NCBI RefSeq assembly: GCF_009296025.1
Contig: NZ_CP045178.1
Coordinates: 4,092,001-4,156,000 of the forward strand
Length of the DNA: 64,000 nt
Source of the DNA: Streptomyces tsukubensis
GTDB lineage: Bacteria > Actinomycetota > Actinomycetes > Streptomycetales > Streptomycetaceae
Direction: 5' to 3'
The position numbers were made by a program, and so were the translations under genes. Below, in pieces: positions 4,872 to 30,146 of this stretch. A model generated the notes under the pieces. The model had not been told where the DNA came from, ran no database searches, and worked only from the letters and a program-made list of their open reading frames with translations. Positions within the stretch are counted from its first letter, which is position 1. Each line of letters begins with the position of its first letter.

Positions 4872-5753
4872 CTAGAACTCCTTGCGGATGGCATCGATCA
4901 AGCTGACCGTGTTCGTCTGGGCCAGCGCCTGACGAGCGATCCGATCGAATACCTGAGCGTGATGAACCGCGTCAGTCTCACTCTCCAACCACACGGTTGA
5001 CGAGGTGCTTTCGGCGAAAACCACGTCGAGCGCGCCCTGCTCGTCGAACGAGACGATACTGAAAGCGCTGGTCATGCCTGGGTGTGCCCCCGCAAGGCAC
5101 GGCAGAATCTGAAGCTTCACATTGGGCTGTCGAGCCATGTTGCTGAGATGCCCCAGTTGCTCACGCATCACCGATCTCCCGCCGACAAGCTGTCGCAACG
5201 CTCCTTCCCACAGCACGGCCCATAGCTGCAAAGGGCGCTCTCCCCTCAGACGCTCCTGCCGCGCGAGTCTCGCCTCAACGAACGGCTCGATCTCGTCCGG
5301 GTCGTCCCATGAACCAGCGCCAACGGCCAAGGCCCTCGCGTAGTCAGGTGTCTGCAAGAGGCCGGGTATGACGGCCAATTGCCAGGTACGAATATTGGTG
5401 GCGATATCCTCCAGAGCCACGTACTCCACCATGGCCTGCATCTGGGGGTACTGGTTCCACCAGCCCTTGGCCTTACGTCGGTCGCGGTCGGCTCTGGCCA
5501 GAGCAAGCAGCCTGTTAACCACGACCGGGTCCTGAACTTCGTACAGGTGACACAGCGCCCTGACATCAGGGTCACGCATCGGCACGAGGCCACGTTCCAT
5601 CTTGGCCACCTTCGCCACAGATGCGGTCAACGCTTCGGCAGACGAGGCCTGACGTAGCCCCCTACTCTCGCGCAACGCCAGCAGTTCGCCACCAAGCCGA
5701 CGACCCAGCACCGTCGAGATGGTCTTTCCACGGTCAGCACGGTCTCCGGCCAT
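4872..5753 (-). CDS. XRE family regulator with DUF5753 (Scr1-type)
   Basis: 293 aa. The start is the ATG at 5753, preceded by GAAGGAAGGG; the longer open frame to 5837 has no ribosome site. The N-terminal helix-turn-helix spans roughly residues 10-70 (RRLGGELLALRESRGLRQ). The C-terminal DUF5753 domain includes the typical pieces WQLAVIPGLLQTPDYARAL and LWEGALRQLVGG. It sits with a DUF397 gene and faces an ATPase-fold gene (5995-6426), the common XRE/DUF397/HATPase trio of Streptomyces. GC content here looks lower than in the neighbours, which suggests acquisition. Confidence 0.88.
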   Translation of the reverse strand: MAGDRADRGKTISTVLGRRLGGELLALRESRGLRQASSAEALTASVAKVAKMERGLVPMRDPDVRALCHLYEVQDPVVVNRLLALARADRDRRKAKGWWNQYPQMQAMVEYVALEDIATNIRTWQLAVIPGLLQTPDYARALAVGAGSWDDPDEIEPFVEARLARQERLRGERPLQLWAVLWEGALRQLVGGRSVMREQLGHLSNMARQPNVKLQILPCLAGAHPGMTSAFSIVSFDEQGALDVVFAESTSSTVWLESETDAVHHAQVFDRIARQALAQTNTVSLIDAIRKEF

Positions 5754-5812
5754 CGCCGCCCTTCCTTCACAGTGCTCCACAGTTTGCTGCCAAGTGGCTC
5801 CAGCACCCAATA

Positions 5813-5830
5813 CGCAGAGAATTATCTGCG
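5813..5830. promoter_or_regulatory. 18-bp palindrome in the XRE/HATPase divergent promoter
   Basis: CGCAGA-GAATTA-TCTGCG is a perfect inverted repeat with an AT-rich centre, about 60 bp upstream of the XRE start. It is a plausible autoregulatory operator of the XRE protein. There is no direct evidence beyond symmetry and position. Confidence 0.45.
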
Positions 5831-5841
5831 CAATCAACTTG

Positions 5842-6499
5842 CTGCACAGCCCAACGCGTCAGTACTCTCAGTACCCAACAGGCCACGCTGTGCAGTCCAA
5901 GTGGAAGAGCACCGTCCTGCCCCACCGCAGAACGGCGTGCCACCGCTGGGCATCGCCCGCCAAGGCTCCCGACGCTGCACAGGAGGTGCGCTCCATGTCC
6001 GCTACTCTCCCCAACTCGCGCGACCCGCAAGGTGACCGTTCCGACACCGTCAGCTACACCCCCTACCTCCCCAACGTCTCCCGCGCCCGCCAGCGCGTCG
6101 CTTGGCTCGCCAAGGAGTGGGGCGTGCCGCATCTCATGGACGATGCCGCCCTGTTGGCGAGTGAGCTGTGCAGCAACGCGCTGCTCCACGGCTGCGTACG
6201 GGACCGGCTCTTCCGGGTCGATGTCGCGCTGCGGAACGGCGCCTTCCGGGTGAGCGTCACCGATGCCAAGGGTGAGCGGATGCCCGTACTCCGACAGCCC
6301 GGCGAAGAGCGGGACGACATCGGGCAGTTCGGGCGCGGGCTCCTGCTCGTATCCGCCATCGCGCAACGGTGGGACAGCGAGCCGCTGATCGTCGGTAAGA
6401 CCGTCTGGGCCGAACTCGACGCCTAGCCACCGCACATGTGCGCAGCCTGTGCGTAACCGCTGTGCAGCGGGGCCCCGCCGGTGGGACCCTGCTGCACAG
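5842..6499. repeat. Cluster of five CTGCACAG sites
   Basis: The octamer CTGCACAG occurs at 5842-5849, 5975-5982 and 6492-6499, and as its complement CTGTGCAG at 5888-5895 and 6460-6467. Copies 1/2 and 4/5 form inverted pairs that flank the HATPase gene on both sides. Copy 3 sits next to the ribosome site of that gene. This density is far above chance for an 8-mer in 658 bp. Confidence 0.7.
5995..6426 (+). CDS. ATP-binding protein, HATPase_c_2 / RsbW-like anti-sigma factor fold
   Basis: 143 aa from ATG 5995 behind a strong AGGAGGTG; an open frame extends upstream to 5719 but is not supported. The GHKL ATPase boxes are present: the N-box ASELCSNALLHG near residue 52, and the G1-like region VTDAKGERMPVL and GRGLLLVSAIAQRW near residue 110. 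Single-domain proteins of this kind are serine kinases that act on anti-anti-sigma partners, or regulators of unknown targets that are abundant in Streptomyces. It is divergent from an XRE/DUF397 pair and surrounded by CTGCACAG repeats. Confidence 0.85.
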   Translation: MSATLPNSRDPQGDRSDTVSYTPYLPNVSRARQRVAWLAKEWGVPHLMDDAALLASELCSNALLHGCVRDRLFRVDVALRNGAFRVSVTDAKGERMPVLRQPGEERDDIGQFGRGLLLVSAIAQRWDSEPLIVGKTVWAELDA

Positions 6500-6558
6500 G
6501 TGCCGAGGAAGACGCGGCCAGACCTCCGCGACCGGTGCCACAGAGGCGGGTGGGGTCC

Positions 6559-7999: not shown

Positions 8000-8644
8000 C
8001 TACAGCAACGCCGCACGGGCCTGGTCGAGCAGCCATTGCTCCGCCCGTTCCAGTGACCATCCGTTCTCGTCCACACAGGTGAAGTACGACGCATAGCCGA
8101 AGTAGAACCACAGCACGTCGACCGCCAGATCAAGATCTGTTCCCTGGCGCAGCCCGTCGATATCGGCGAGCCGCCGGGCGGTACGGACGAAGCCCTTGCG
8201 GTAGACGTCGGTCGCCTCGGCGAGGGCCTGCGCGGCCCGCGCGTCGTGCGGCGCGGTGGCCAGCACCACTCGCATGACGTCACCCCACTCGGCGCGCACC
8301 TCGCGCGTACCGGAAGCCGTCGCGCGCAGGATCGCCTCCGCGTCGGTGAGCACCGCCACGTGTGCGTAGGTGGACGCGATGACCGGGGCGGTTGTCCACT
8401 GCTGGATCAGCGTGTGCAAGAGGCCGTGTTTGCCGCCGCCGACCGCGTAGACCGTCGCCGGGGCCACTCGGGCCTCGGCGGCGATGTCCTCGACCCTGGT
8501 GGCGAAGAACCCGTTGGAGCTGAAGAGCTTCCTCGCCGCGTCGATGATCGCCTGGCGGGTGAGTGCGGCGTACTCAGCTCTTCTGTTGTTGCTGGCGCCG
8601 CCCTTGTCGCCGGCCCCGCTCTTGTCGCCGGTGCTGCCCTTCAT
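8000..8644 (-). CDS. TetR family transcriptional regulator
   Basis: 214 aa. After a 25-residue hydrophilic N-terminus comes a TetR_N helix-turn-helix: TRQAIIDAARKLFSSNGFFATRVEDIAAEARVAPATVYAV. The usual Tyr after the recognition helix is followed by GGGKHGLLH, a variant of F.sKe.LL. The C-terminal domain contains the pattern VLWFYFGYASYFTCVDENGWSLERAEQWL seen in solvent-exposed TetR regulators of oxidoreductases. It is divergent from an FAD-dependent oxidase gene, with a 19-bp palindrome between them, so it most likely represses that gene and itself. Confidence 0.88.
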   Translation of the reverse strand: MKGSTGDKSGAGDKGGASNNRRAEYAALTRQAIIDAARKLFSSNGFFATRVEDIAAEARVAPATVYAVGGGKHGLLHTLIQQWTTAPVIASTYAHVAVLTDAEAILRATASGTREVRAEWGDVMRVVLATAPHDARAAQALAEATDVYRKGFVRTARRLADIDGLRQGTDLDLAVDVLWFYFGYASYFTCVDENGWSLERAEQWLLDQARAALL

Positions 8645-12246: not shown

Positions 12247-13182
12247 GTGAACAACGGCACCAAAGGCGCACGCCGCGCCGCCACCCTTCTCGTCACCGCG
12301 GGCGCGGTCCTCGCCGCCTCCGCCCTGACCACGCCCGCGCAGGCGGCCACATCGACGCCGTCCGTCAAGGCCAAGGGTGCCTTCCTGCTGAACACGGCGT
12401 CGGGCGCGACCCTGTACAGCAAGGCTGCCGACACGAAGCGGCAGATGGCGAGCACCACCAAGATGATGACGGCCACCGTCGTCCTCGACACCAAGGGCTT
12501 GAACCTCAACCGCAAGGTCACCGTCAAGAAGACCTACCGCGACTACGTCACCAAGGAGGGCGCGTCCACCGCCGACCTCCGCACGGGCGACAAGCTGACC
12601 GTCAAGCAGCTGCTGTACGCGACGATGCTCCCCTCGGGTTGCGACGCGGCGTACGCGCTGGCGGACGCCTTCGGCTCGGGCAAGACCGTCGCCGCGCGCA
12701 AGAGCTCGTTCATCGGCAAGATGAACGCGAAGGCCGGCTCCCTCGGCATGAAGAACACCAAGTACGACTCCTTCGACGGCATCTCGTCGAAGGGCAAGAA
12801 CTACACCACCCCGCGTGACATGTCGAAGCTCGCCAGGCACGCGCTGAAGAGTTCCACGTTCAAGACCGTCGTCGCGACGAAGAGCACCAAGCAGAAGGCG
12901 ACCGCGAGCAGCGGCAAGTCCCGTACGTACACCTGGTACAACACCAACAAGCTGCTCGGTTCCTACAAGGGCGCCATCGGCATCAAGACCGGCACGGGCA
13001 CCGCGGCCGGACCCTGCCTCGTCTTCGCCGCCAGCCGCGGTGGCAAGACCGTCGCGGGTGTCATCCTCAACGACGCCAACCGCTACCAGGACGCGGCGAA
13101 GATCATGGACGCGGCCTTCAAGTCGAAGAGCGCCAAGAGCATGAAGCTGCGCGTGCTGCCGCCCACCGCCCAGCGCGACTGA
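12247..13182 (+). CDS. D-alanyl-D-alanine carboxypeptidase (penicillin-binding protein, S11 family)
   Basis: 311 aa from GTG 12247 behind GGAG. A signal peptide (MNNGTKGARRAATLLVTAGA... cleaved near TPAQAA) exports it. The active-site motifs are in order: MASTTKMMT (SxxK) near residue 69, PSGCDAAYAL (SxN variant, with Cys instead of Asn) near residue 128, and GIKTGTG (KTG) near residue 245. It trims the terminal D-Ala of peptidoglycan pentapeptides outside the membrane. It is lysine-rich. There is no C-terminal amphipathic anchor, so it may be released or weakly attached. Confidence 0.9.
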   Translation: MNNGTKGARRAATLLVTAGAVLAASALTTPAQAATSTPSVKAKGAFLLNTASGATLYSKAADTKRQMASTTKMMTATVVLDTKGLNLNRKVTVKKTYRDYVTKEGASTADLRTGDKLTVKQLLYATMLPSGCDAAYALADAFGSGKTVAARKSSFIGKMNAKAGSLGMKNTKYDSFDGISSKGKNYTTPRDMSKLARHALKSSTFKTVVATKSTKQKATASSGKSRTYTWYNTNKLLGSYKGAIGIKTGTGTAAGPCLVFAASRGGKTVAGVILNDANRYQDAAKIMDAAFKSKSAKSMKLRVLPPTAQRD

Positions 13183-13235
13183 TCGGACCGGATCGGATCG
13201 ACCGATCCGACTCGGCACCCGGCACAGTTACGGCA

Positions 13236-13268
13236 GGAGCCCGCGGCCAGTGGTTGGCCGCGGGCTCC
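13236..13268. terminator. Bidirectional terminator between dac and bkdC1
   Basis: GGAGCCCGCGGCC and GGCCGCGGGCTCC form a perfect 13-bp stem with a 7-base loop, between two convergent genes. Confidence 0.85.
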
Positions 13269-13321
13269 CGCCGTTCTCGGTATGGGTATGGGTATCGGTC
13301 CAGGACCCGGCAGCCGCTACG

Positions 13322-14947
13322 TCAGCCCCACGTGATCAGCCGCTTCGGCCGCTCCAGCACCGCCGCCACATCCGCGAGTGCCTTGGAGCCCAACTCACCG
13401 TCGACCAACCGGTGGTCGAAGGAGAGCGCGAGAGTGGTGACCTGGCGCGGCTTCACCTTGCCCTTGTGCACCCACGGCTGAAGCTTGATCGCCCCGACCG
13501 CGAGGATCGCGGACTCGCCCGGGTTGAGGATCGGCGTCCCCGTGTCGATGCCGAAGACACCGACGTTGGTGATCGTGACGGACCCGCCCTGCATCGCGGC
13601 GGGGGTCGTCCTGCCCTCCCTGGCCGTCGACACCAGGTCGCCGAGCGCGTCGGCCAGTTCCGGCAGGGCCTTGTCCTGGGCGTCCTTGATGTTGGGGACG
13701 AGGAGGCCACGCGGGGTGGCCGCCGCGATACCCAGGTTCACGTAGTGCTTCTGGACGATCTCCTGGGCCGCCTCGTCCCAGGACGCGTTGATCCCGGGGT
13801 TCCGCTTGATCGCGACGAGGAACGCCTTGGCGATCAGCAGCAGCGGGTTGACCCGCACCCCCGCCATGTCGGGGTCGGCCTTCAGCTCCTGGACGAGCTT
13901 CATCGTGCGCGTCACATCGACCGTCACGAACTCCGTGACATGCGGCGCCGTGAACGCCGAGCCCACCATCGCCTGCGCGGTCGCCTTGCGTACACCCTTC
14001 ACGGGGATACGGGTCTCGCGCGCGCCGTTCACCGCCGCGGGGGCCTGCGCCACCGGCTCGGGGGCGGGGACAGAGACGGGAGCGGAGGGAGCCGCGGGCT
14101 GCCGCCCCTCGGGAACGGTCACCGCCGCGTGCACGTCGTCGCGGGTGATGACCCCGTCGGCGCCGGTCGGGGTGACCGTGTACAGGTCCACGCCCAGGTC
14201 CTTGGCCAGCTTGCGCACCGGGGGCTTCGCGAGGGGGCGTGCGCCCGGCGGTGTCGCCGTACCGGACGCGTGACCGTTGAGCTCGTACGCGGCCGACGCC
14301 TGAGCCGGACGCTCCGCCTGCGGCGCGGGCTGCTCGGGCGGGGCGGGCGGCGCGTAATAAGTACCCTCGGACGCCGTACCCGTGGACGCCGTACCCGTGG
14401 ACGCCGTACCCGTCTCCCCGGCGGCAGCCCCCCGGCCACCCGGCTCCGTCCCCTTACGGGGCCTCCGCTTGGTGGAGGACTCCGCCACGCCATAGCCGAC
14501 CAGCACCGGAGTGCGGCCTTCCTTGACGGCGGGCTCGGCGGGCTCGGCGGGCTCGGCGGGCTGAGCGGGCTCGGCGGGCTGGGTGGACTCAGCGGGCCCG
14601 GCAGACCCGGCAGACCCAGGAGTCACAGCCGCCTCGTCGGCACCGTCGGCACCGTCGGCACCACTGGCGCCGCCCGCCTCCCCCGCCACATCGATCGCGA
14701 TGATCACCTGGCCGACATCGACCGTCGTGCCCTCGGGGAAGCGCAGCTCCCGCACCACCCCGTCAAACGGGATCGGCAGCTCGACCGCGGCCTTCGCCGT
14801 CTCGACCTCGCACACCACCTGGCCGTCGGTGACCGTGTCACCCGGCGCCACATGCCACTTCAGGATCTCGGCCTCGGTGAGCCCTTCGCCCACGTCCGGC
14901 ATCTTGAACTCGCGGAAACGAGCCGTTTGCTGCGTCATCGTCGTCAC
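13322..14947 (-). CDS. bkdC1: Dihydrolipoamide acyltransferase E2 of branched-chain keto-acid dehydrogenase, cluster 1
   Basis: 541 aa from GTG 14947 behind GAGAGGGG. Domain order: lipoyl domain (residues ~12-88, lipoylated Lys in EVETAKAAVE), a long Ala/Pro/Glu/Thr linker with repeated AEPAEPAEP units, a peripheral-subunit-binding domain (KPPVRKLAKDLGVDL, ~residue 225) and the catalytic core ending in FDHRLVDGELG (HRxxDG active site). It transfers acyl groups from lipoamide to CoA and forms the core of the complex. It is third in an A-B-C operon. The products (isobutyryl-, isovaleryl-, 2-methylbutyryl-CoA) start branched fatty acid and polyketide synthesis. Assignment as BKD rather than PDH rests on operon type. 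Confidence 0.85.
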   Translation of the reverse strand: MTTMTQQTARFREFKMPDVGEGLTEAEILKWHVAPGDTVTDGQVVCEVETAKAAVELPIPFDGVVRELRFPEGTTVDVGQVIIAIDVAGEAGGASGADGADGADEAAVTPGSAGSAGPAESTQPAEPAQPAEPAEPAEPAVKEGRTPVLVGYGVAESSTKRRPRKGTEPGGRGAAAGETGTASTGTASTGTASEGTYYAPPAPPEQPAPQAERPAQASAAYELNGHASGTATPPGARPLAKPPVRKLAKDLGVDLYTVTPTGADGVITRDDVHAAVTVPEGRQPAAPSAPVSVPAPEPVAQAPAAVNGARETRIPVKGVRKATAQAMVGSAFTAPHVTEFVTVDVTRTMKLVQELKADPDMAGVRVNPLLLIAKAFLVAIKRNPGINASWDEAAQEIVQKHYVNLGIAAATPRGLLVPNIKDAQDKALPELADALGDLVSTAREGRTTPAAMQGGSVTITNVGVFGIDTGTPILNPGESAILAVGAIKLQPWVHKGKVKPRQVTTLALSFDHRLVDGELGSKALADVAAVLERPKRLITWG

Positions 14948-24948: not shown

Positions 24949-25926
24949 TCAGAGCGTGAGCAGTACCTTGCCGATGTGACCGCTCTCCTCAAGGACCCGG
25001 TGGGCGGCGGCCGCCTCGGACATGGGCAGCGTCCTGTCGATGATCGGACGGACCTTGCCCGCGGCGATGAGGGGCCAGACGTGTTCACGGACCGCCGCGA
25101 CGATCGACGTCTTCTCGCTGAGCGGCCGCGCACGGAGCGAAGCCGCGGTGACGGCCGCGCGCTTCATCAGCAGCGCGTTCAGGTTCAGCTCGCCCTTGAT
25201 TCCACCCTGGAGACCGATGATGGCGAGCCTGCCGTTGACGGCCAGGGCCTGGACGTTCCTGTCCAGGTACTTGGCGCCCATGTTGTCGAGGATGACATCG
25301 GCGCCCGCTCCCTCGGTGGCCTTCTTCAGCTCCTCCACGAAGTCCTGCTCGCGGTAGTTGATGAGGATGTCCGCGCCCAGCTCACCGCAGTAGCGCAGCT
25401 TGTCCTCCGTGCCCGCGGTGACCGCGACCCGCGCCCCGACGGCCTTGGCGAGCTGGATCGCCATCGTGCCGATACCGCTGGAGCCACCGTGCACCAGCAG
25501 CGTCTCACCGGGACGCAGGTGAGAAATCAAAAAGACGTTGGACCACACCGTCGAGACCACCTCGGGCAGCCCCGCCGCGTCGACGAGGCCCACGCCCTCG
25601 GGGACCGGCAGCAGCTGCCCCGCGGGGACGGCGACCTTCTCCGCGTACCCGCCGCCGCCGAGCAGCGCGCACACCTCGTCGCCGACGGACCAGCCGCTCA
25701 CCCCGGTGCCGAGGGCGGCGATACGCCCCGACACCTCAAGGCCGGGGTAGGCGGAAGCGCCCGGCGGCGGCTCGTAGAAACCCTGCCGCTGCATCAGATC
25801 GGCCCGGTTGACGGCGCTCGCCGCCACCTCGACCAGAACTTCGCCCGGCCCCGGGACGGGGTCCGGCACATCTGTCCATGTGAGCACTTCCGGCCCACCC
25901 GGTTCGGTGATCGTGATTGCCTTCAT
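24949..25926 (-). CDS. NAD(P)H-quinone oxidoreductase, zinc-less MDR family
   Basis: 325 aa, full length for the family. Starts MKAITITEPGGPEVLTW; GroES-like N-terminal half (PGLEVSGRIAALGTGVSGWSVGDEVCALL), Rossmann half with ETLLVHGGSSGIGTMAIQLAKAVGARV (NADPH site), and the quinone-reductase-like block GADVILDNMGAKYLDRNVQALAVNGRLAIIGLQGG. It probably reduces quinones or enones with NADPH. Bases 25538-25846 are repeated almost exactly at 29737-30045. The first 26 codons differ from those of the truncated copy, so this gene seems to be a chimera of an incoming 5' end and the resident 3' part. Confidence 0.88.
   Translation of the reverse strand: MKAITITEPGGPEVLTWTDVPDPVPGPGEVLVEVAASAVNRADLMQRQGFYEPPPGASAYPGLEVSGRIAALGTGVSGWSVGDEVCALLGGGGYAEKVAVPAGQLLPVPEGVGLVDAAGLPEVVSTVWSNVFLISHLRPGETLLVHGGSSGIGTMAIQLAKAVGARVAVTAGTEDKLRYCGELGADILINYREQDFVEELKKATEGAGADVILDNMGAKYLDRNVQALAVNGRLAIIGLQGGIKGELNLNALLMKRAAVTAASLRARPLSEKTSIVAAVREHVWPLIAAGKVRPIIDRTLPMSEAAAAHRVLEESGHIGKVLLTL
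25538..25846. repeat. 309-bp direct repeat, copy 1
   Basis: Matches 29737-30045 with one mismatch that I can see (25694, C versus T, giving Val or Met). It lies inside the quinone oxidoreductase gene. Identity stops abruptly at both ends. Confidence 0.9.
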
Positions 25927-25996
25927 AACCTCACGCTACCCACGACGAAGGCCCCGCCCATGCGCCACGGGGGGGGGAGCACACAGACGGGGCCGC

Positions 25997-26803
25997 TCAG
26001 GCGGCTTTCCGATGCTCCGCCCAGCGTCGGGAGGCATCACGGATTCCAGCCGTCCACGGGTCCGGGTCAGTGCCCGCAATCTCTTCCCACATGTTCACGG
26101 TCGCCAGCGCGAAAGCCGTGACGGCTGCGGGTGGTGCCGCTTGCCACGCCGGAATTCGGGCCGCCCACCTCTCCGCCGACCGGGGGTCGTGCTTGCCCGC
26201 TGCCATGAGCCACACGACCCAATAGGCAGCGTCCAGCCATGCCGCACCGCGTGAAGCCCACGCCCAGTCAACGAGATAGGCGGGGCCGTCCACCATGGCG
26301 TTCTCGTTGTTCAGGTCCGAGTGAACCAGCGAGTTGCCCGCGAAATGAGCCACGTCAGACGGCTTGGCCACGTAGGACGCTAGGCGCTGTTCCATGTGCC
26401 GCAACTCGATATCGGGGCAGGCGACCTCCCCGAGTCGGCAGAGAAGGTCAGCCACCTTCGGAAGGTCCGGGGATGCGGGCGAGTAGTCCGCGTGGTGGCC
26501 GTCCAGCGCTTCAAAGCCCAAGAGCACCCATCCGGCTTCTTCCAGCTGCCAGCGAAGGGCGGGCGCGATGCCGCGAAGATATGGGTTGACCTCAGCTTCT
26601 CGGCGCTGCGTCCATACGCGTTTGTGGTCGGATCGCAGACCCTTCACGAAAAAGGACCCGTTGCCTGTGAATACGCGCGCAGCGATTTCGCTATTGAACC
26701 CCTGGCTTACCGTCTCGGCTTTGCTGATTTCTCCGGCGCGAGACTCGACGCCAGCCAGCACGGCGGGCGGTAGATCATCGAATGACATTCGCTCAGTTGC
26801 CAC
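25997..26803 (-). CDS. Aminoglycoside-phosphotransferase (APH)-fold kinase, probable RiPP tailoring or self-protection enzyme
   Basis: 268 aa from GTG 26803 (ATG 26788 is an alternative). APH family hallmarks: ATP-binding Lys in FFVKGLRSD (~K54), catalytic loop LVHSDLNNEN (H161, D163, N168; usual form HGDLxxxN) and the metal-binding VDWAWA (D179). A WVLLGFEALDGHHADYSP hinge is typical. It is the last gene of a run transcribed with the radical SAM and peptide genes, 84 bp after the peptide stop. In this context it may phosphorylate the modified peptide or its maturation intermediate; it could also be a resistance kinase. Substrate not known. Confidence 0.82.
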   Translation of the reverse strand: MATERMSFDDLPPAVLAGVESRAGEISKAETVSQGFNSEIAARVFTGNGSFFVKGLRSDHKRVWTQRREAEVNPYLRGIAPALRWQLEEAGWVLLGFEALDGHHADYSPASPDLPKVADLLCRLGEVACPDIELRHMEQRLASYVAKPSDVAHFAGNSLVHSDLNNENAMVDGPAYLVDWAWASRGAAWLDAAYWVVWLMAAGKHDPRSAERWAARIPAWQAAPPAAVTAFALATVNMWEEIAGTDPDPWTAGIRDASRRWAEHRKAA

Positions 26804-26887
26804 GGTCCCCAGACTACGACGCCCGTACGGGTCCCGCAGCGGCGAACGCCGCGAGATCCGTACGGAGTTGAACAGACCACCCGCACC

Positions 26888-27064
26888 CTACTGGTACGGG
26901 TTGTCGTCGTTGCACCCCGGCGTGGTGCCTTCGGTCAGCGACTCCACGTCATCCACGATGACCAGCCCTGCCGGTTCCGGGGCCTTCGGCGGGACAGCCG
27001 GGACCGGAACCAGTCCGAGAGCAGGGAAGGGACGGGGCTCGATTTCGACGGCTACAGCGCTCAC
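26888..27064 (-). CDS. Candidate RiPP precursor peptide (58 aa)
   Basis: Read directly from the minus strand. The GTG start (27064-27062) overlaps the TGA of the radical SAM gene as GTGA, with GGAG about ten bases upstream, so it is translationally coupled. The peptide begins MSAVAVEIEPRPFPALGL, has a Pro/Val/Ala-rich middle (residues 10-33), an acidic stretch VIVDDVESLTEG (35-46) and ends TTPGCNDDNPYQ with a single Cys51. Size, leader-like N-terminus, compact polar C-terminus with Cys/Asn/Asp/Tyr, and position next to a SPASM enzyme fit a precursor. I do not recognise the core motif. It is easily missed by gene callers. Confidence 0.8.
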   Translation of the reverse strand: MSAVAVEIEPRPFPALGLVPVPAVPPKAPEPAGLVIVDDVESLTEGTTPGCNDDNPYQ

Positions 27065-28182
27065 GCTGCATCATCTCCATTTCCGTGTTGGCAGTAGGTA
27101 TTCAGTGGTGCCTTCGCTTCCTGGTAAGCCTTGGCTAGCGGCCGACAGACCCGGCACGAAGCCGAGAGTTGGCAGCCGCTACAGCCACCGGAGCGAAGCA
27201 TTTGGGCATCTGCGATATCGGGCAGACGCAATAGACCGCCCAGACCCTCAGCCATAAGGCTTATGGGATTCTCCCGTCCGATCTTGCACATGGTGGCGAA
27301 CCCGTGGGGGTCCACATGGAAAAAGGTGTGCCCTGCCGGGCATCCTTGGAAGACCGTGGACTTGTCCAGCAGTCCGGGCGCTTGAGCGGCGAGCGGTTCG
27401 GCGCTACCGTCATAGGTCGGGGAAATGTTCGAGTATTCCGTGTACGCCTGTGCGTACTCCTCCGCGATTTCCCGCATTGCGGCTATCTCGTGGGCATTGT
27501 GCTTGGTGATGATCAGCACAAGCTCAAGGGGGATGCCTGATTCTTTGGCGTCCTTGATCCCCTTCATGAGCAGTTTGTACGCACCGGGCTTGCGTGTAAG
27601 GGAATCGAAGCTCTCAGCGGTCGCACCGTAGAGAGATACCGCAACCTTGTGCGGCCTCATTGACGAGAGCAGTTCGATTACGTCCGGCCGGTGCAGACGA
27701 GATCCGTTCGTCAGAATCTCGATGAGCATTCCGAGACCGTAGGCGTAGCGGTAGGAGTGCGCGAAGTCCCGGTCAATGGTGGGCTCCCCACCCGTGAATT
27801 GCAGCCACAACACACCCGCATCCCGGAGCATCAAGAGCAGCCGCTCTTTCTCCTCGCGCGGAAGCCCTTCAAATTTGCGCTCCGCCAAATAGCAGTGCTC
27901 GCAATTGAAGTTGCACCCCTTGTTGATCTCCCACGTGGCGCGGCTGTAGTTCAGCGGAGTGAGGGGGCGAACCAGCACGTTGCCGTTGGCGCGCTGCCCG
28001 GCAAGGTCGATGCCCCATGCCTGTCGGGCAGCGTCGGCCAGCCAACCGGGCACCTCACGGCGGTCGTCCACGGCACCGGCTAGCTCTTGGTGCATGGCGC
28101 GCGGGATCTGCATTCCCTTACGCGCACCTGGGCGCGCAATGACGAACTTCTCGCCCTGCGGACTGGCGATCACCTGGTGCAT
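27061..28182 (-). CDS. Radical SAM/SPASM peptide-modifying enzyme
   Basis: 373 aa from ATG 28182 with GGAGG seven bases upstream. The 4Fe-4S/SAM motif is C90-NFN-C94-EH-C97, followed by FTGGEP (131-134). The C-terminal SPASM domain is complete: C281-x12-G-x4-C299, then C334-x2-C337-x5-C343-x2-C346 and C364, enough for two auxiliary clusters. About 85 residues precede the core and could hold a peptide-recognition fold. Enzymes of this architecture install thioether, C-C or other crosslinks in RiPPs or mature enzymes. It is the first gene of a run with the peptide and APH genes. The crosslink type cannot be predicted. Confidence 0.92.
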   Translation of the reverse strand: MHQVIASPQGEKFVIARPGARKGMQIPRAMHQELAGAVDDRREVPGWLADAARQAWGIDLAGQRANGNVLVRPLTPLNYSRATWEINKGCNFNCEHCYLAERKFEGLPREEKERLLLMLRDAGVLWLQFTGGEPTIDRDFAHSYRYAYGLGMLIEILTNGSRLHRPDVIELLSSMRPHKVAVSLYGATAESFDSLTRKPGAYKLLMKGIKDAKESGIPLELVLIITKHNAHEIAAMREIAEEYAQAYTEYSNISPTYDGSAEPLAAQAPGLLDKSTVFQGCPAGHTFFHVDPHGFATMCKIGRENPISLMAEGLGGLLRLPDIADAQMLRSGGCSGCQLSASCRVCRPLAKAYQEAKAPLNTYCQHGNGDDAA

Positions 28183-28510: not shown

Positions 28511-29341
28511 ATGAGCGAACTGCCGTCCGATCGGGGCAGCGAGCCCGCCAACGGCCTTGAGTGGTTCGGGCGAGAGCTTGAGGCCGCCTTGATCCACCAG
28601 GGGGCTAGCCAGCGCCAACTAGCCGATGCCACCGGCTACAAAGAGCCGTACGTGAGCAAGGTCAAGAACGGCAAGGCCATGCCGTCCCCAGCCTTCGCCG
28701 AAGGCTGTGACCGCTTCTTCAACACCTCGGGGTACTTCGCCCGGCTTCTCATCCGGATCAGCGAAAACGGGCACCCTGGCTGGTTCGTCCCGTACATCAA
28801 CTTGGAGAAGCAGGCCAGCCAGATTGAGGACTACTCCAACGGTCTGATCATGGGCATGTTGCAGACGTGGGAGTACGCGGAAGCTACGTTCCGGGCCACC
28901 TTCCCGTACGAGGCTGACGACCAGATCAAGACCAGAGTGGAAGCCCGCTTGGCCCGACGTGAGGTCCTGGAGCGCGAGGCTCCGCCCCTGCTCTGGGTAA
29001 TCCTTCACGAAGCGACCTTGCGCACGGTGGTCGGCAGCCGGGCCGTCATGGCTGACCAGCTCCGCCAGCTTGCCGCCGACGCAGGAAAACCCCACGTCAC
29101 GGTTCAAGTTCTTCGCTCCAAGACGGGTGCCCCCGCGTCCGGTACACCCTTTACGCTGCTTACACCAGACGACGGGGCAACAGTCCTGTACACAGAGGCC
29201 ATGGGGCAGGGACACGTGACGGACTCCGCGCAGTCGGTCAGCCACGGACGCGCAACGTTTGAGCGTCTGCGGGCATCCGCACGCGACCCCGAAGAGTCCG
29301 TGGCTCTGATTCGTGAGATCGCGGAGGAGTACCACAAATGA
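28511..29341 (+). CDS. XRE family regulator with DUF5753
   Basis: 276 aa from ATG 28511; a GTG-initiated extension upstream lacks a ribosome site. The HTH is GRELEAALIHQGASQRQLADATGYKEPYVSKVKNGKAMPSPAFAEGCDRFF (residues ~20-70). The DUF5753 part has SNGLIMGMLQTWEYAEATF and LLWVILHEATLRTVVGSRAVMADQL. Its stop overlaps the DUF397 start (ATGA). It is divergent from the radical SAM/peptide operon and is the obvious candidate regulator for it. It is only distantly similar to the XRE protein at 4872-5753. Confidence 0.88.
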   Translation: MSELPSDRGSEPANGLEWFGRELEAALIHQGASQRQLADATGYKEPYVSKVKNGKAMPSPAFAEGCDRFFNTSGYFARLLIRISENGHPGWFVPYINLEKQASQIEDYSNGLIMGMLQTWEYAEATFRATFPYEADDQIKTRVEARLARREVLEREAPPLLWVILHEATLRTVVGSRAVMADQLRQLAADAGKPHVTVQVLRSKTGAPASGTPFTLLTPDDGATVLYTEAMGQGHVTDSAQSVSHGRATFERLRASARDPEESVALIREIAEEYHK

Positions 29342-29550
29342 GCAGCACGCACGGCCCCCAGCCTGACCAGTGGGTCAAGAGCACGTACAGCGACGGAAAC
29401 GGCGGCCAGTGCATCGAGTGGGCCCCGGAGCACACGGCCGTCACGGGTGAGTTCCTGGTCCGTGACTCCAAGGACCCGAACGGGCCTCACCTGAACCTGA
29501 CCCGCGAAGGCTTCGCCGGACTGGTCGCCTTCGCCAAGGACCACGGCTGA
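29338..29550 (+). CDS. DUF397 domain protein
   Basis: 70 aa. Contains WVKSTYSDGNGGQCIEWAPE and FLVRDSKDPNGPHLNLTREGFAGLVAFAKDHG, the complete DUF397 pattern. Start overlaps the XRE stop by four bases, so it is translationally coupled. It is the partner of the XRE regulator, as at 4674-4868. Confidence 0.9.
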   Translation: MSSTHGPQPDQWVKSTYSDGNGGQCIEWAPEHTAVTGEFLVRDSKDPNGPHLNLTREGFAGLVAFAKDHG

Positions 29551-29674: not shown

Positions 29675-29714
29675 GGGGGAGCGCGACGGTTGCCTATGCG
29701 ACGAGCGCTCCCCC
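29675..29714. repeat. Inverted repeat at the insertion junction
   Basis: GGGGGAGCGC (29675-29684) and GCGCTCCCCC (29705-29714) are perfect complements around a 20-bp centre. It lies 23 bp from the edge of the 309-bp direct repeat, inside the 3' extension of the truncated gene. It could be a terminator, a crossover site or the recombinase-binding arms of an old attachment site. Confidence 0.55.
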
Positions 29715-30125
29715 TGGGGGAGTCGTCACAAGCTCTTTGGACCACACCGTCGAGACCACCTCGGGCAGCCCCGCCGCGTCGACGAGGCCCACGCCCTCGG
29801 GGACCGGCAGCAGCTGCCCCGCGGGGACGGCGACCTTCTCCGCGTACCCGCCGCCGCCGAGCAGCGCGCACATCTCGTCGCCGACGGACCAGCCGCTCAC
29901 CCCGGTGCCGAGGGCGGCGATACGCCCCGACACCTCAAGGCCGGGGTAGGCGGAAGCGCCCGGCGGCGGCTCGTAGAAACCCTGCCGCTGCATCAGATCG
30001 GCCCGGTTGACGGCGCTCGCCGCCACCTCGACCAGAACTTCGCCCTCGGCGGGCACCGGCTCGGGCACCTCGGACCAGACGAGTACGTCGGGTCCGCCAG
30101 GTTCGGAAATCGTGATCGCATACAT
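29694..30125 (-). pseudogene. Truncated quinone oxidoreductase (5' copy)
   Basis: 143 codons. Residues 1-26 (MYAITISEPGGPDVLVWSEV...) are related to but different from the intact copy at 24949-25926. Residues about 27-129 are the same DNA apart from one base. After STVWS the frame runs into unrelated sequence (KELVTTPPGGALVA) and stops. The NADPH-binding half is missing, so it should be inactive. It sits 21 bp from the K+ channel gene, probably the original position of the resident gene's 5' end. Confidence 0.88.
29737..30045. repeat. 309-bp direct repeat, copy 2
   Basis: Second copy of 25538-25846 at a constant offset of 4199 bp, with one mismatch. Both copies are in the same orientation within homologous reading frames. 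Confidence 0.9.
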
Positions 30126-30146
30126 ATCCGCGAGGCTACTCGGACC

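Follow-up and report, generated by a model that had tools for sequence, protein, structure and literature searches.

Results

A maturase, a precursor peptide and a kinase in one cassette

The window analysed here is a stretch of 64,000 nucleotides from Streptomyces tsukubensis (contig NZ_CP045178.1, positions 4,092,001 to 4,156,000). It holds a cassette of three genes, encoding a radical S-adenosylmethionine (SAM) enzyme with a SPASM domain (rSAM), a peptide of 58 residues, and a kinase with the aminoglycoside phosphotransferase (APH) fold (Table 1). The original prediction, made from the letters of the window, described these three genes, ten cysteines in the enzyme and a GTGA overlap, and regarded the set as a candidate for a new ribosomally synthesized and post-translationally modified peptide (RiPP). 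The genes and their coordinates were reproduced. The GTG start of the peptide open reading frame (ORF; 27062-27064) overlaps the TGA stop of the rSAM gene (27061-27063), and the C-terminal end of the 58-codon ORF is TTPGCNDDNPYQ. New in our analysis is that the kinase tracks the tyrosine of the peptide core.

Table 1. Positions of the cassette genes, their parts and the flanking features in the window.
Feature	Position	Strand	Remarks
Radical SAM/SPASM maturase (rSAM)	27061..28182	-	373 aa
RRE-like N-terminal domain of rSAM	27973..28182	-	residues 1-70; predicted fold, SuiB/SkfB alignments
SPASM region of rSAM, C281 to C364	27091..27342	-	CX12GX4C ... CX2CX5CX2C ... C
Precursor peptide, 58 aa	26888..27064	-	recurs in 118/122 rows; purifying selection
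Predicted core PGCNDDNPYQ, residues 49-58	26891..26920	-	column counts from 118 non-redundant precursors
Core Cys51 codon	26912-26914	-	
Core Tyr57 codon	26894-26896	-	
APH-fold kinase, 268 aa	25997..26803	-	conserved catalytic residues; predicted fold
Divergent HTH-DUF5753 regulator	28511..29341	+	Pfam DUF5753 164.5 bits, HTH_31
DUF397 protein	29338..29550	+	Pfam DUF397 62.7 bits
Left direct-repeat copy	25538..25930		5' part of intact quinone-oxidoreductase gene (24949-25926, -)
Right direct-repeat copy	29737..30129		5' part of truncated oxidoreductase copy (29694-30125, -)

The precursor peptide and its core

The proposed pairing of precursor and maturase is strongly supported by the relatives. 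A small ORF with the conserved tail lies behind the rSAM gene in 118 of 122 loci examined, 11 of which repeat the first 200 rSAM residues of another row. In four loci it is missing, where the sequence is broken or truncated: L045 has broken frames, the contig of L088 ends 158 bp past the stop, and L155 and L156 have an incomplete rSAM match. For the counts below, 137 merged loci were reduced to 118 non-redundant loci by dropping 19 (11 repeats, one short, three with stops and four without a precursor); this 118 coincides in number with the loci having a small ORF, and is a different set. The precursor starts 4 bp inside the rSAM stop in at least 74 of the 118 rows, as in the window, which is a lower count because rows with a misread rSAM end give wrong offsets.

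Numbered from the last proline (P), the 118 precursors have Asp at P-2 in 115 rows and Asn or Gln at P-1 in 117. The core cysteine is found at P-5 in 51 precursors (PGC type) and as CxC at P-9/P-7 in 67 (CSC type). Serine occupies P-8 in 64 precursors (the CSC type), and no Ser/Thr column is common to both core types. The residue at P+1 is Tyr (89), His (19), Phe (7) or Asn (3), leaving 29 precursors without Tyr. It is last or next-to-last in 117, with two residues following in one row, and 48 carry a residue beyond the Tyr. As the precursor filter required Cys and Pro near the end, these two columns are partly selected; L172/L181, which the filter missed and which were read by eye, end in CSCSASDSQPY and have the CSC too.

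A conserved C-terminus with a variable middle, which the original prediction had named as supporting evidence, was found among the relatives, and selection acts accordingly on the two parts. In three clades picked for equal length (11, 7 and 6 sequences), the ratio of nonsynonymous to synonymous differences (pN/pS, uncorrected proportions) was 0.09, 0.00 and 0.12 for the last 12 codons, versus 0.42, 0.36 and 0.32 for the remaining codons. Between the window and L021, pS was 0.22 and pN 0.06 over the last 24 codons. By these ratios, purifying selection maintains the tail GC..DDNPY. Neither observation that would have spoken against the original prediction, intact homologous loci devoid of the small ORF or a peptide frame free of such selection, was made. 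The leader commonly starts with MTAVxVEI. This start is absent in Streptomyces phage Success, where the stretch VVLVDDVEAL is kept, which suggests that VVLVDDVEAL is what the rSAM binds.

The kinase covaries with the core tyrosine

A kinase gene lies within a few kilobases after the rSAM and precursor genes in 87 of the 118 non-redundant loci, and each of these 87 has the core Tyr. The 31 kinase-less loci have His (19), Phe (7), Asn (3) or Tyr (2), and are thus non-Tyr in 29 cases. A GCN5-related N-acetyltransferase (GNAT) gene stands in place of the kinase in 29 of the 118 loci; three loci have both, and two have neither. GNATs were counted above 100 bits, so that a 54-bit match beside the kinase of L180 was left out; both GNAT genes tested match Pfam Acetyltransf_1. 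The readable rows among the dropped loci agree, for example L044 (kinase and Tyr), L096 (GNAT and His) and L174 (GNAT and Phe).

Two other causes of this link were considered and rejected. Core class is not a hidden cause, as CSC-type cores alone have Tyr in 37/37 kinase rows and a different residue in 28/30 kinase-less rows. Presence of a GNAT does not account for loss of Tyr either, since the three loci with both enzymes retain it. Searches of the whole genomes G010, G130 and G255, whose loci lack the kinase, gave no kinase match.

On a quick rSAM tree, seven changes occurred at the Tyr position, three on branches of kinase loss, four on kinase-less branches and none where the kinase was kept. 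Branches with the kinase at both ends make up 23.4 of about 31.1 branch-length units, and the absence of changes there has a naive p of 6e-5. An Mk model with kinase-dependent Tyr change, compared with independent change, gave a likelihood-ratio statistic (twice the log-likelihood difference) of 33.95 (two degrees of freedom). A careful tree was built from 83 rows after thinning at 90% identity. It yields five independent pairs that differ in Tyr; averaged over random pairings, the kinase differs in the same direction in 4.9 of them, and it never differs in the opposite one. Nine phage, viral and plasmid records fetched after the rule had been noted all fit it: L197, L198, L199, L200, L201, L206 and L210 have kinase and Tyr, and L207 (Phe) and L208 (His) have neither. 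Not all nine are new events, since the tail and the following gene of L207 show it to be related to L099; L209 shares coordinates with L090 and was left out of this count.

Since almost all kinase-less loci lack the Tyr, the kinase most likely acts on the hydroxyl of the core Tyr (Tyr57 in the window), as far as covariation can tell. The earlier proposal that the kinase phosphorylates the product or provides self-protection thereby gains evidence. We know of no RiPP kinase that acts on Tyr.

After the precursor of L207 (7578-8090) and of L159 (about 8105-8580), a third gene of ~160-170 aa was seen, the two being alike by eye. Both loci have NPF cores and neither kinase nor GNAT; the third gene of L207 had no Pfam match.

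The maturase

The CX3CX2C motif of the rSAM (C90/C94/C97) and the seven SPASM cysteines (C281, C299, C334, C337, C343, C346 and C364) do not vary in any of the 57 aligned relatives. SPASM domains have the seven-cysteine pattern CX9-15GX4C-CX2CX5CX3C-C. The first block of the enzyme, CX12GX4C, fits this pattern, and the second, CX2CX5CX2C, is one residue shorter. Pfam assigns the enzyme to the radical SAM level only, and no NCBIfam cut-off was reached among the 25 matches listed of 48 models matched, the best scoring 85.2 bits against 500. Among the matches listed, the nearest models are AhbD, MftC and NirJ, with the sactipeptide models StsB, SkfB and AlbA as weaker matches, and relatives in public records are mostly labelled 'radical SAM protein'.

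An AlphaFold model of the rSAM has a mean predicted local distance difference test score (pLDDT) of 83, with low confidence in parts of the SPASM domain and values of at least 91 in the N-terminal block. This block has the order strand-strand-strand-helix-helix-helix (E4-9, E12-16, E23-26, H28-39, H46-56 and H65-68). Top fold matches in the PDB are the RiPP maturases SkfB and SuiB; SuiB chains align to model residues 1/2-366 and SkfB to 3-350. Such an N-terminus, followed by radical SAM and SPASM domains, is the architecture of RiPP maturases bearing a RiPP recognition element (RRE). The predicted fold, judged within alignments of the whole enzyme and not as a separate domain query, points to an RRE-like leader-binding domain at the N-terminus.

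A PADLOC match to the prokaryotic viperin model pVip (57.5 bits; no cut-off stated) covers the core of the enzyme only, and the NCBIfam viperin score is 46.9 versus a cut-off of 180. Together, the precursor and the SPASM domain argue against a prokaryotic viperin.

The kinase

All 46 relatives compared share residues K53, E68, H160, D162, N167 and D178 of the kinase (the start codon is left out of this numbering), giving a catalytic Lys, an HxDxxxxN motif and a metal-binding Asp that match the APH-fold pattern. The AF2 model (pLDDT 94.4) matches choline kinases, homoserine kinase, corramycin phosphotransferase, APHs, amicoumacin kinase and the lexapeptide complex LxmKY in the PDB; rows within 1 Z count as tied. 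Many family kinases are annotated as 'aminoglycoside phosphotransferase'. A second family kinase in the genome of the window (G000:C2:3518947-3519672, L178; 37% identical) lies beside two small ORFs, and no rSAM was found within the 15 kb read around it.

Distribution, mobility and gene neighbourhood

Of 392 same-genus genomes, 72 have a relative of the rSAM (E ≤ 1e-60). Relatives also occur in 17 of 394 genomes of the class, the genome of the window included (E ≤ 1e-40), and in 16/200, 6/35 and 3/14 genomes of three other families (E ≤ 1e-60), some of the latter being matches from earlier searches again. Among 8000 candidates scored, 671 were relatives at E ≤ 1e-40. The 28 named contig records with relatives (L021-L048) comprise 26 from Streptomyces, one from Actinacidiphila and one from Dactylosporangium; 18 further loci of that search were distant rSAMs and were left out.

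The cassette is compact and horizontally mobile. Streptomyces phage Success (57,163 bp, complete), annotated with terminase, capsid, tail, endolysin and tyrosine recombinase genes, carries it at the end of its genome, with the kinase as gp1 (Pfam APH, 21.9 bits), a 38-aa precursor ending in PGCGDDNPYN as gp2 and an rSAM of 59% identity as gp3. The phage-like linear plasmid phiDSM40276 and two IMG/VR contigs also hold the cassette. The rSAM occurs in eight plasmid records, phiDSM40276 among them, of which two are the same S. cattleyicolor replicon and one is an 11.85-Mb Nonomuraea record of chromosome size. In a megablast search for cassette-free phages related to Success, only Success itself matched, so that no empty site was obtained for comparison. 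PADLOC and PHROGs gave generic rSAM, viperin, regulator and DUF397-type matches and nothing further.

A divergent pair of genes for a helix-turn-helix (HTH)-DUF5753 regulator and a DUF397 protein adjoins the cassette in the window. A pair of the same type stands beside the cassette of Success, and one is annotated in phiDSM40276. The pair is probably part of the unit, because it accompanies the cassette on the phage. The adjacent regulator varies among loci (HTH-DUF5753/DUF397, HTH-tetratricopeptide repeat and others), and a HATPase, NUDIX-, GNAT- or YdcF-like gene lies near the cassette in some of them, some of these labels being given by eye. Such variety is seen upstream of the rSAM gene in many loci, e.g. 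L029, L033, L069, L073 and L075.

In the window, the cassette sits between two direct-repeat copies aligned over 393 columns with 28 mismatches, one in the first 309 bp and 27 in the rest; the near-identical 309 bp are followed by sharp divergence up to the start codon. When 20 relatives were searched for the oxidoreductase repeat, 19 matched; G065 has two copies and the other 18 have one each. The interval between the two copies in the window showed no recognisable integrase ORF. The arrangement looks like an integration that gave the quinone-oxidoreductase gene a new 5' end. The layout of L021 is similar. In L067, a cassette of 86% identity is bracketed by inverted ORFs of 348 aa (5472-6518, +; 12613-13659, -) that are alike over the 120 residues compared; we read them as transposase-like, resembling those of an insertion sequence (IS).

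Discussion

From the gene set, its conservation, the selection on the precursor, the predicted folds, the covariation and the carriage by phage and plasmids, all of which are observed, we conclude with a probability of roughly 0.68 that the cassette is an unnamed mobile rSAM RiPP system whose own kinase phosphorylates the core Tyr, for tailoring or self-protection. For the reaction, the order of steps, the substrate of the kinase and the role of the product, we infer the following. Expression would probably be controlled by the HTH/DUF397 pair. The rSAM would use its RRE-like domain to bind the leader of the peptide, whose translation is coupled to its own, and would modify the core (P)GC..DDNPY at the conserved C-terminus. 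Judging from conservation, the most likely chemistry is a Cys-centred cross-link, for example a thioether from Cys51 to an Asp or Asn carbon. The kinase would then act on the product, most likely at Tyr57. Of the cross-link partners suggested in the original prediction, Tyr57 is unlikely to be an obligatory one, because His, Phe or Asn replaces it in 29/118 loci while Cys, Asp and Pro stay; Cys51 with Asp or Asn appears to be the better guess.

Several points weigh against this reading. The modification is a prediction from sequence and fold. The Mk rates lie at their bounds and come from one quick tree. On the careful tree, Tyr differs in the same direction in five of seven independent kinase-differing pairs and is unchanged in two, and the sign test gives p 0.06, a test that cannot pass 0.05 because there are only five independent Tyr events. 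Two loci, L070 and L161/L191, keep Tyr without an adjacent kinase; a kinase acting in trans was considered for them and rejected, the L070 genome (G061) having no kinase match and the L161/L191 genome (G824) a weak one alone (E 3e-6). The rSAM of L199, one of the later records, is shortened (942 bp matched). Covariation may also mean that the kinase recognises Tyr without phosphorylating it. The RRE-like domain is known from a model, and a domain in a model does not equal binding. The kinase has metabolic enzymes as its two best fold matches (a choline/ethanolamine kinase family protein and a homoserine kinase). The window kinase has no Pfam match at E 0.01, and its relatives lie around the Pfam APH cut-off of 23.2 bits (P0137 23.3, P0182 24.7, P0209 19.9, P0250 unmatched). 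In the 45 largest neighbour clusters (simple ORF calling, mostly judged by eye), we recognised no shared protease or exporter, so that no candidate emerged for release and export of the peptide.

Within the preferred reading, we slightly favour covalent capping of a bioactive peptide, i.e. self-protection, because a GNAT takes the slot of the kinase and these are two unrelated enzyme classes typical of antibiotic modification. Obligatory tailoring is a serious possibility, at somewhat less than even odds. Phospho-Tyr would then belong to the active molecule, as a signal or as a group that binds a metal or a target, and the His, Phe and Asn lineages would make a different product, acetylated or plain. 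The tight covariation would suit this reading, as would the match of the kinase model to LxmKY, the lexapeptide dehydratase complex of a RiPP pathway, and a core that is conserved rather than diversifying as in many bacteriocins. However, the GNAT swap and the three loci with both enzymes suit interchangeable capping enzymes, and two loci retain Tyr without the kinase.

With comparable plausibility, the rSAM might perform other chemistry on Asp, Asn or Pro (dehydrogenation, epimerisation or decarboxylation), the Cys being a redox or metal ligand and not part of a cross-link. The Cys-Asp spacing differs between the core types (P-5 versus P-9/P-7), which a fixed ring would not predict, and the best NCBIfam neighbours, AhbD, MftC and NirJ, are not thioether enzymes. 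A Cys is present in 118/118 precursors, although the filter required one, and the filter-missed L181 has the CSC as well; this favours the cross-link, as do SkfB, a thioether maturase, as top fold match and the weaker matches to StsB, SkfB and AlbA.

Somewhat more tentatively, the cassette could be a fitness module of phages and plasmids (toxin-antidote, superinfection exclusion or inter-strain weapon) with the kinase or GNAT as antidote. Carriage by Success, a phage-like linear plasmid and eight plasmid records points in this direction, together with the patchy distribution in 72/392 same-genus genomes and flanks made of a duplicated gene 5' end (window) or two IS-like ORFs (L067). Yet many copies lie on chromosomes and have regulators of differing types, the PADLOC matches are viperin-like only and confined to the rSAM core, and the case is made from gene context and distribution. 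That the small ORF is a regulatory or accessory protein of the rSAM is very improbable: its strongly conserved C-terminus, unlike many RiPP cores, and the missing protease or exporter would fit, but the leader is variable next to a conserved tail, the partner enzyme has an RRE-like and a SPASM domain, and the residue at the Tyr position is coupled to the kinase.

Comparison with known systems

To our knowledge, no kinase occurs in the loci of SuiB (streptide) and SkfB (sporulation killing factor). Both enzymes resemble the window enzyme in having an N-terminal RRE-like domain, a radical SAM and a SPASM domain; they are 16-18% identical to it (VIA alignments), and their precursor motif differs. 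LxmK, the kinase of the class V lanthipeptide lexapeptide, works with LxmY on Ser/Thr. In contrast to LxmK (PDB 9dk3), the kinase described here is coupled to Tyr; with no Ser/Thr column common to both core types, the cassette does not resemble class V, no search aimed at an LxmY homologue having been made. We know of no case in which the substrate of corramycin phosphotransferase (8agy), the amicoumacin kinase AmiN (6sv5) or an APH, all fold-related to the cassette kinase, is the product of an adjacent rSAM-precursor pair. In the precursor MftA of mycofactocin, Tyr stands at or near the C-terminus, as in the cassette precursor. The corresponding maturase model MftC (TIGR03962) is the second-best NCBIfam neighbour among the matches listed, at 76 bits and far under its 265-bit cut-off. 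Decarboxylation of a C-terminal Tyr as in mycofactocin was rejected for the cassette, where Tyr is neither always terminal nor universal.

Ranthipeptides such as freyrasin, in which PapB makes Cys-Asp thioethers (PMC11002830), have Cys and Asp/Asn in the core and an rSAM/SPASM enzyme, like the cassette. The cassette differs in its single short C-terminal core, its DxP-aromatic tail and its kinase or GNAT partner, and the linkage is predicted here. In ranthipeptides and sactipeptides, a thioether joins Cys to a core carbon; the cores found have a Cys that is a candidate for such a bond. Triceptides (3-residue cyclophanes) such as the Tyr-Asp product of YxdB, described in PMC11002830 as well, also arise from SPASM rSAMs acting on short motifs with an aromatic residue and Asx, the aromatic being linked two positions on. 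A cyclophane of this kind was rejected, as the residue at the corresponding position of the cassette precursor is last or next-to-last except in a single row, and is Asn in three rows.

No description of the precursor motif, of the gene set or of a RiPP phosphorylated on Tyr came up in open-access PMC text (supplements and subscription papers not being searchable), nor in the accessible parts of PMC11002830 and PMC11118758. A SPECO-type survey may list the precursor-rSAM pair unnamed.

Significance

Sequence alone defines, in this cassette, a so far uncharted family of rSAM RiPPs whose core is conserved and whose kinase has a target predicted to the residue. The label 'aminoglycoside phosphotransferase' on family kinases could mislead resistance surveys. 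The presence of a precursor, maturase and kinase set in a complete tailed phage draws attention to the role of such peptides for phages and plasmids in Streptomyces. In a broader and doubtful view, phages and plasmids would carry a RiPP class with a Tyr kinase of its own, an APH-fold enzyme dedicated to the mature core and working as an on/off or antidote switch. Here, lineages losing the kinase would lose the Tyr, most then relying on an acetyltransferase, and warheads and capping enzymes would be exchanged as matched pairs by mobile elements.

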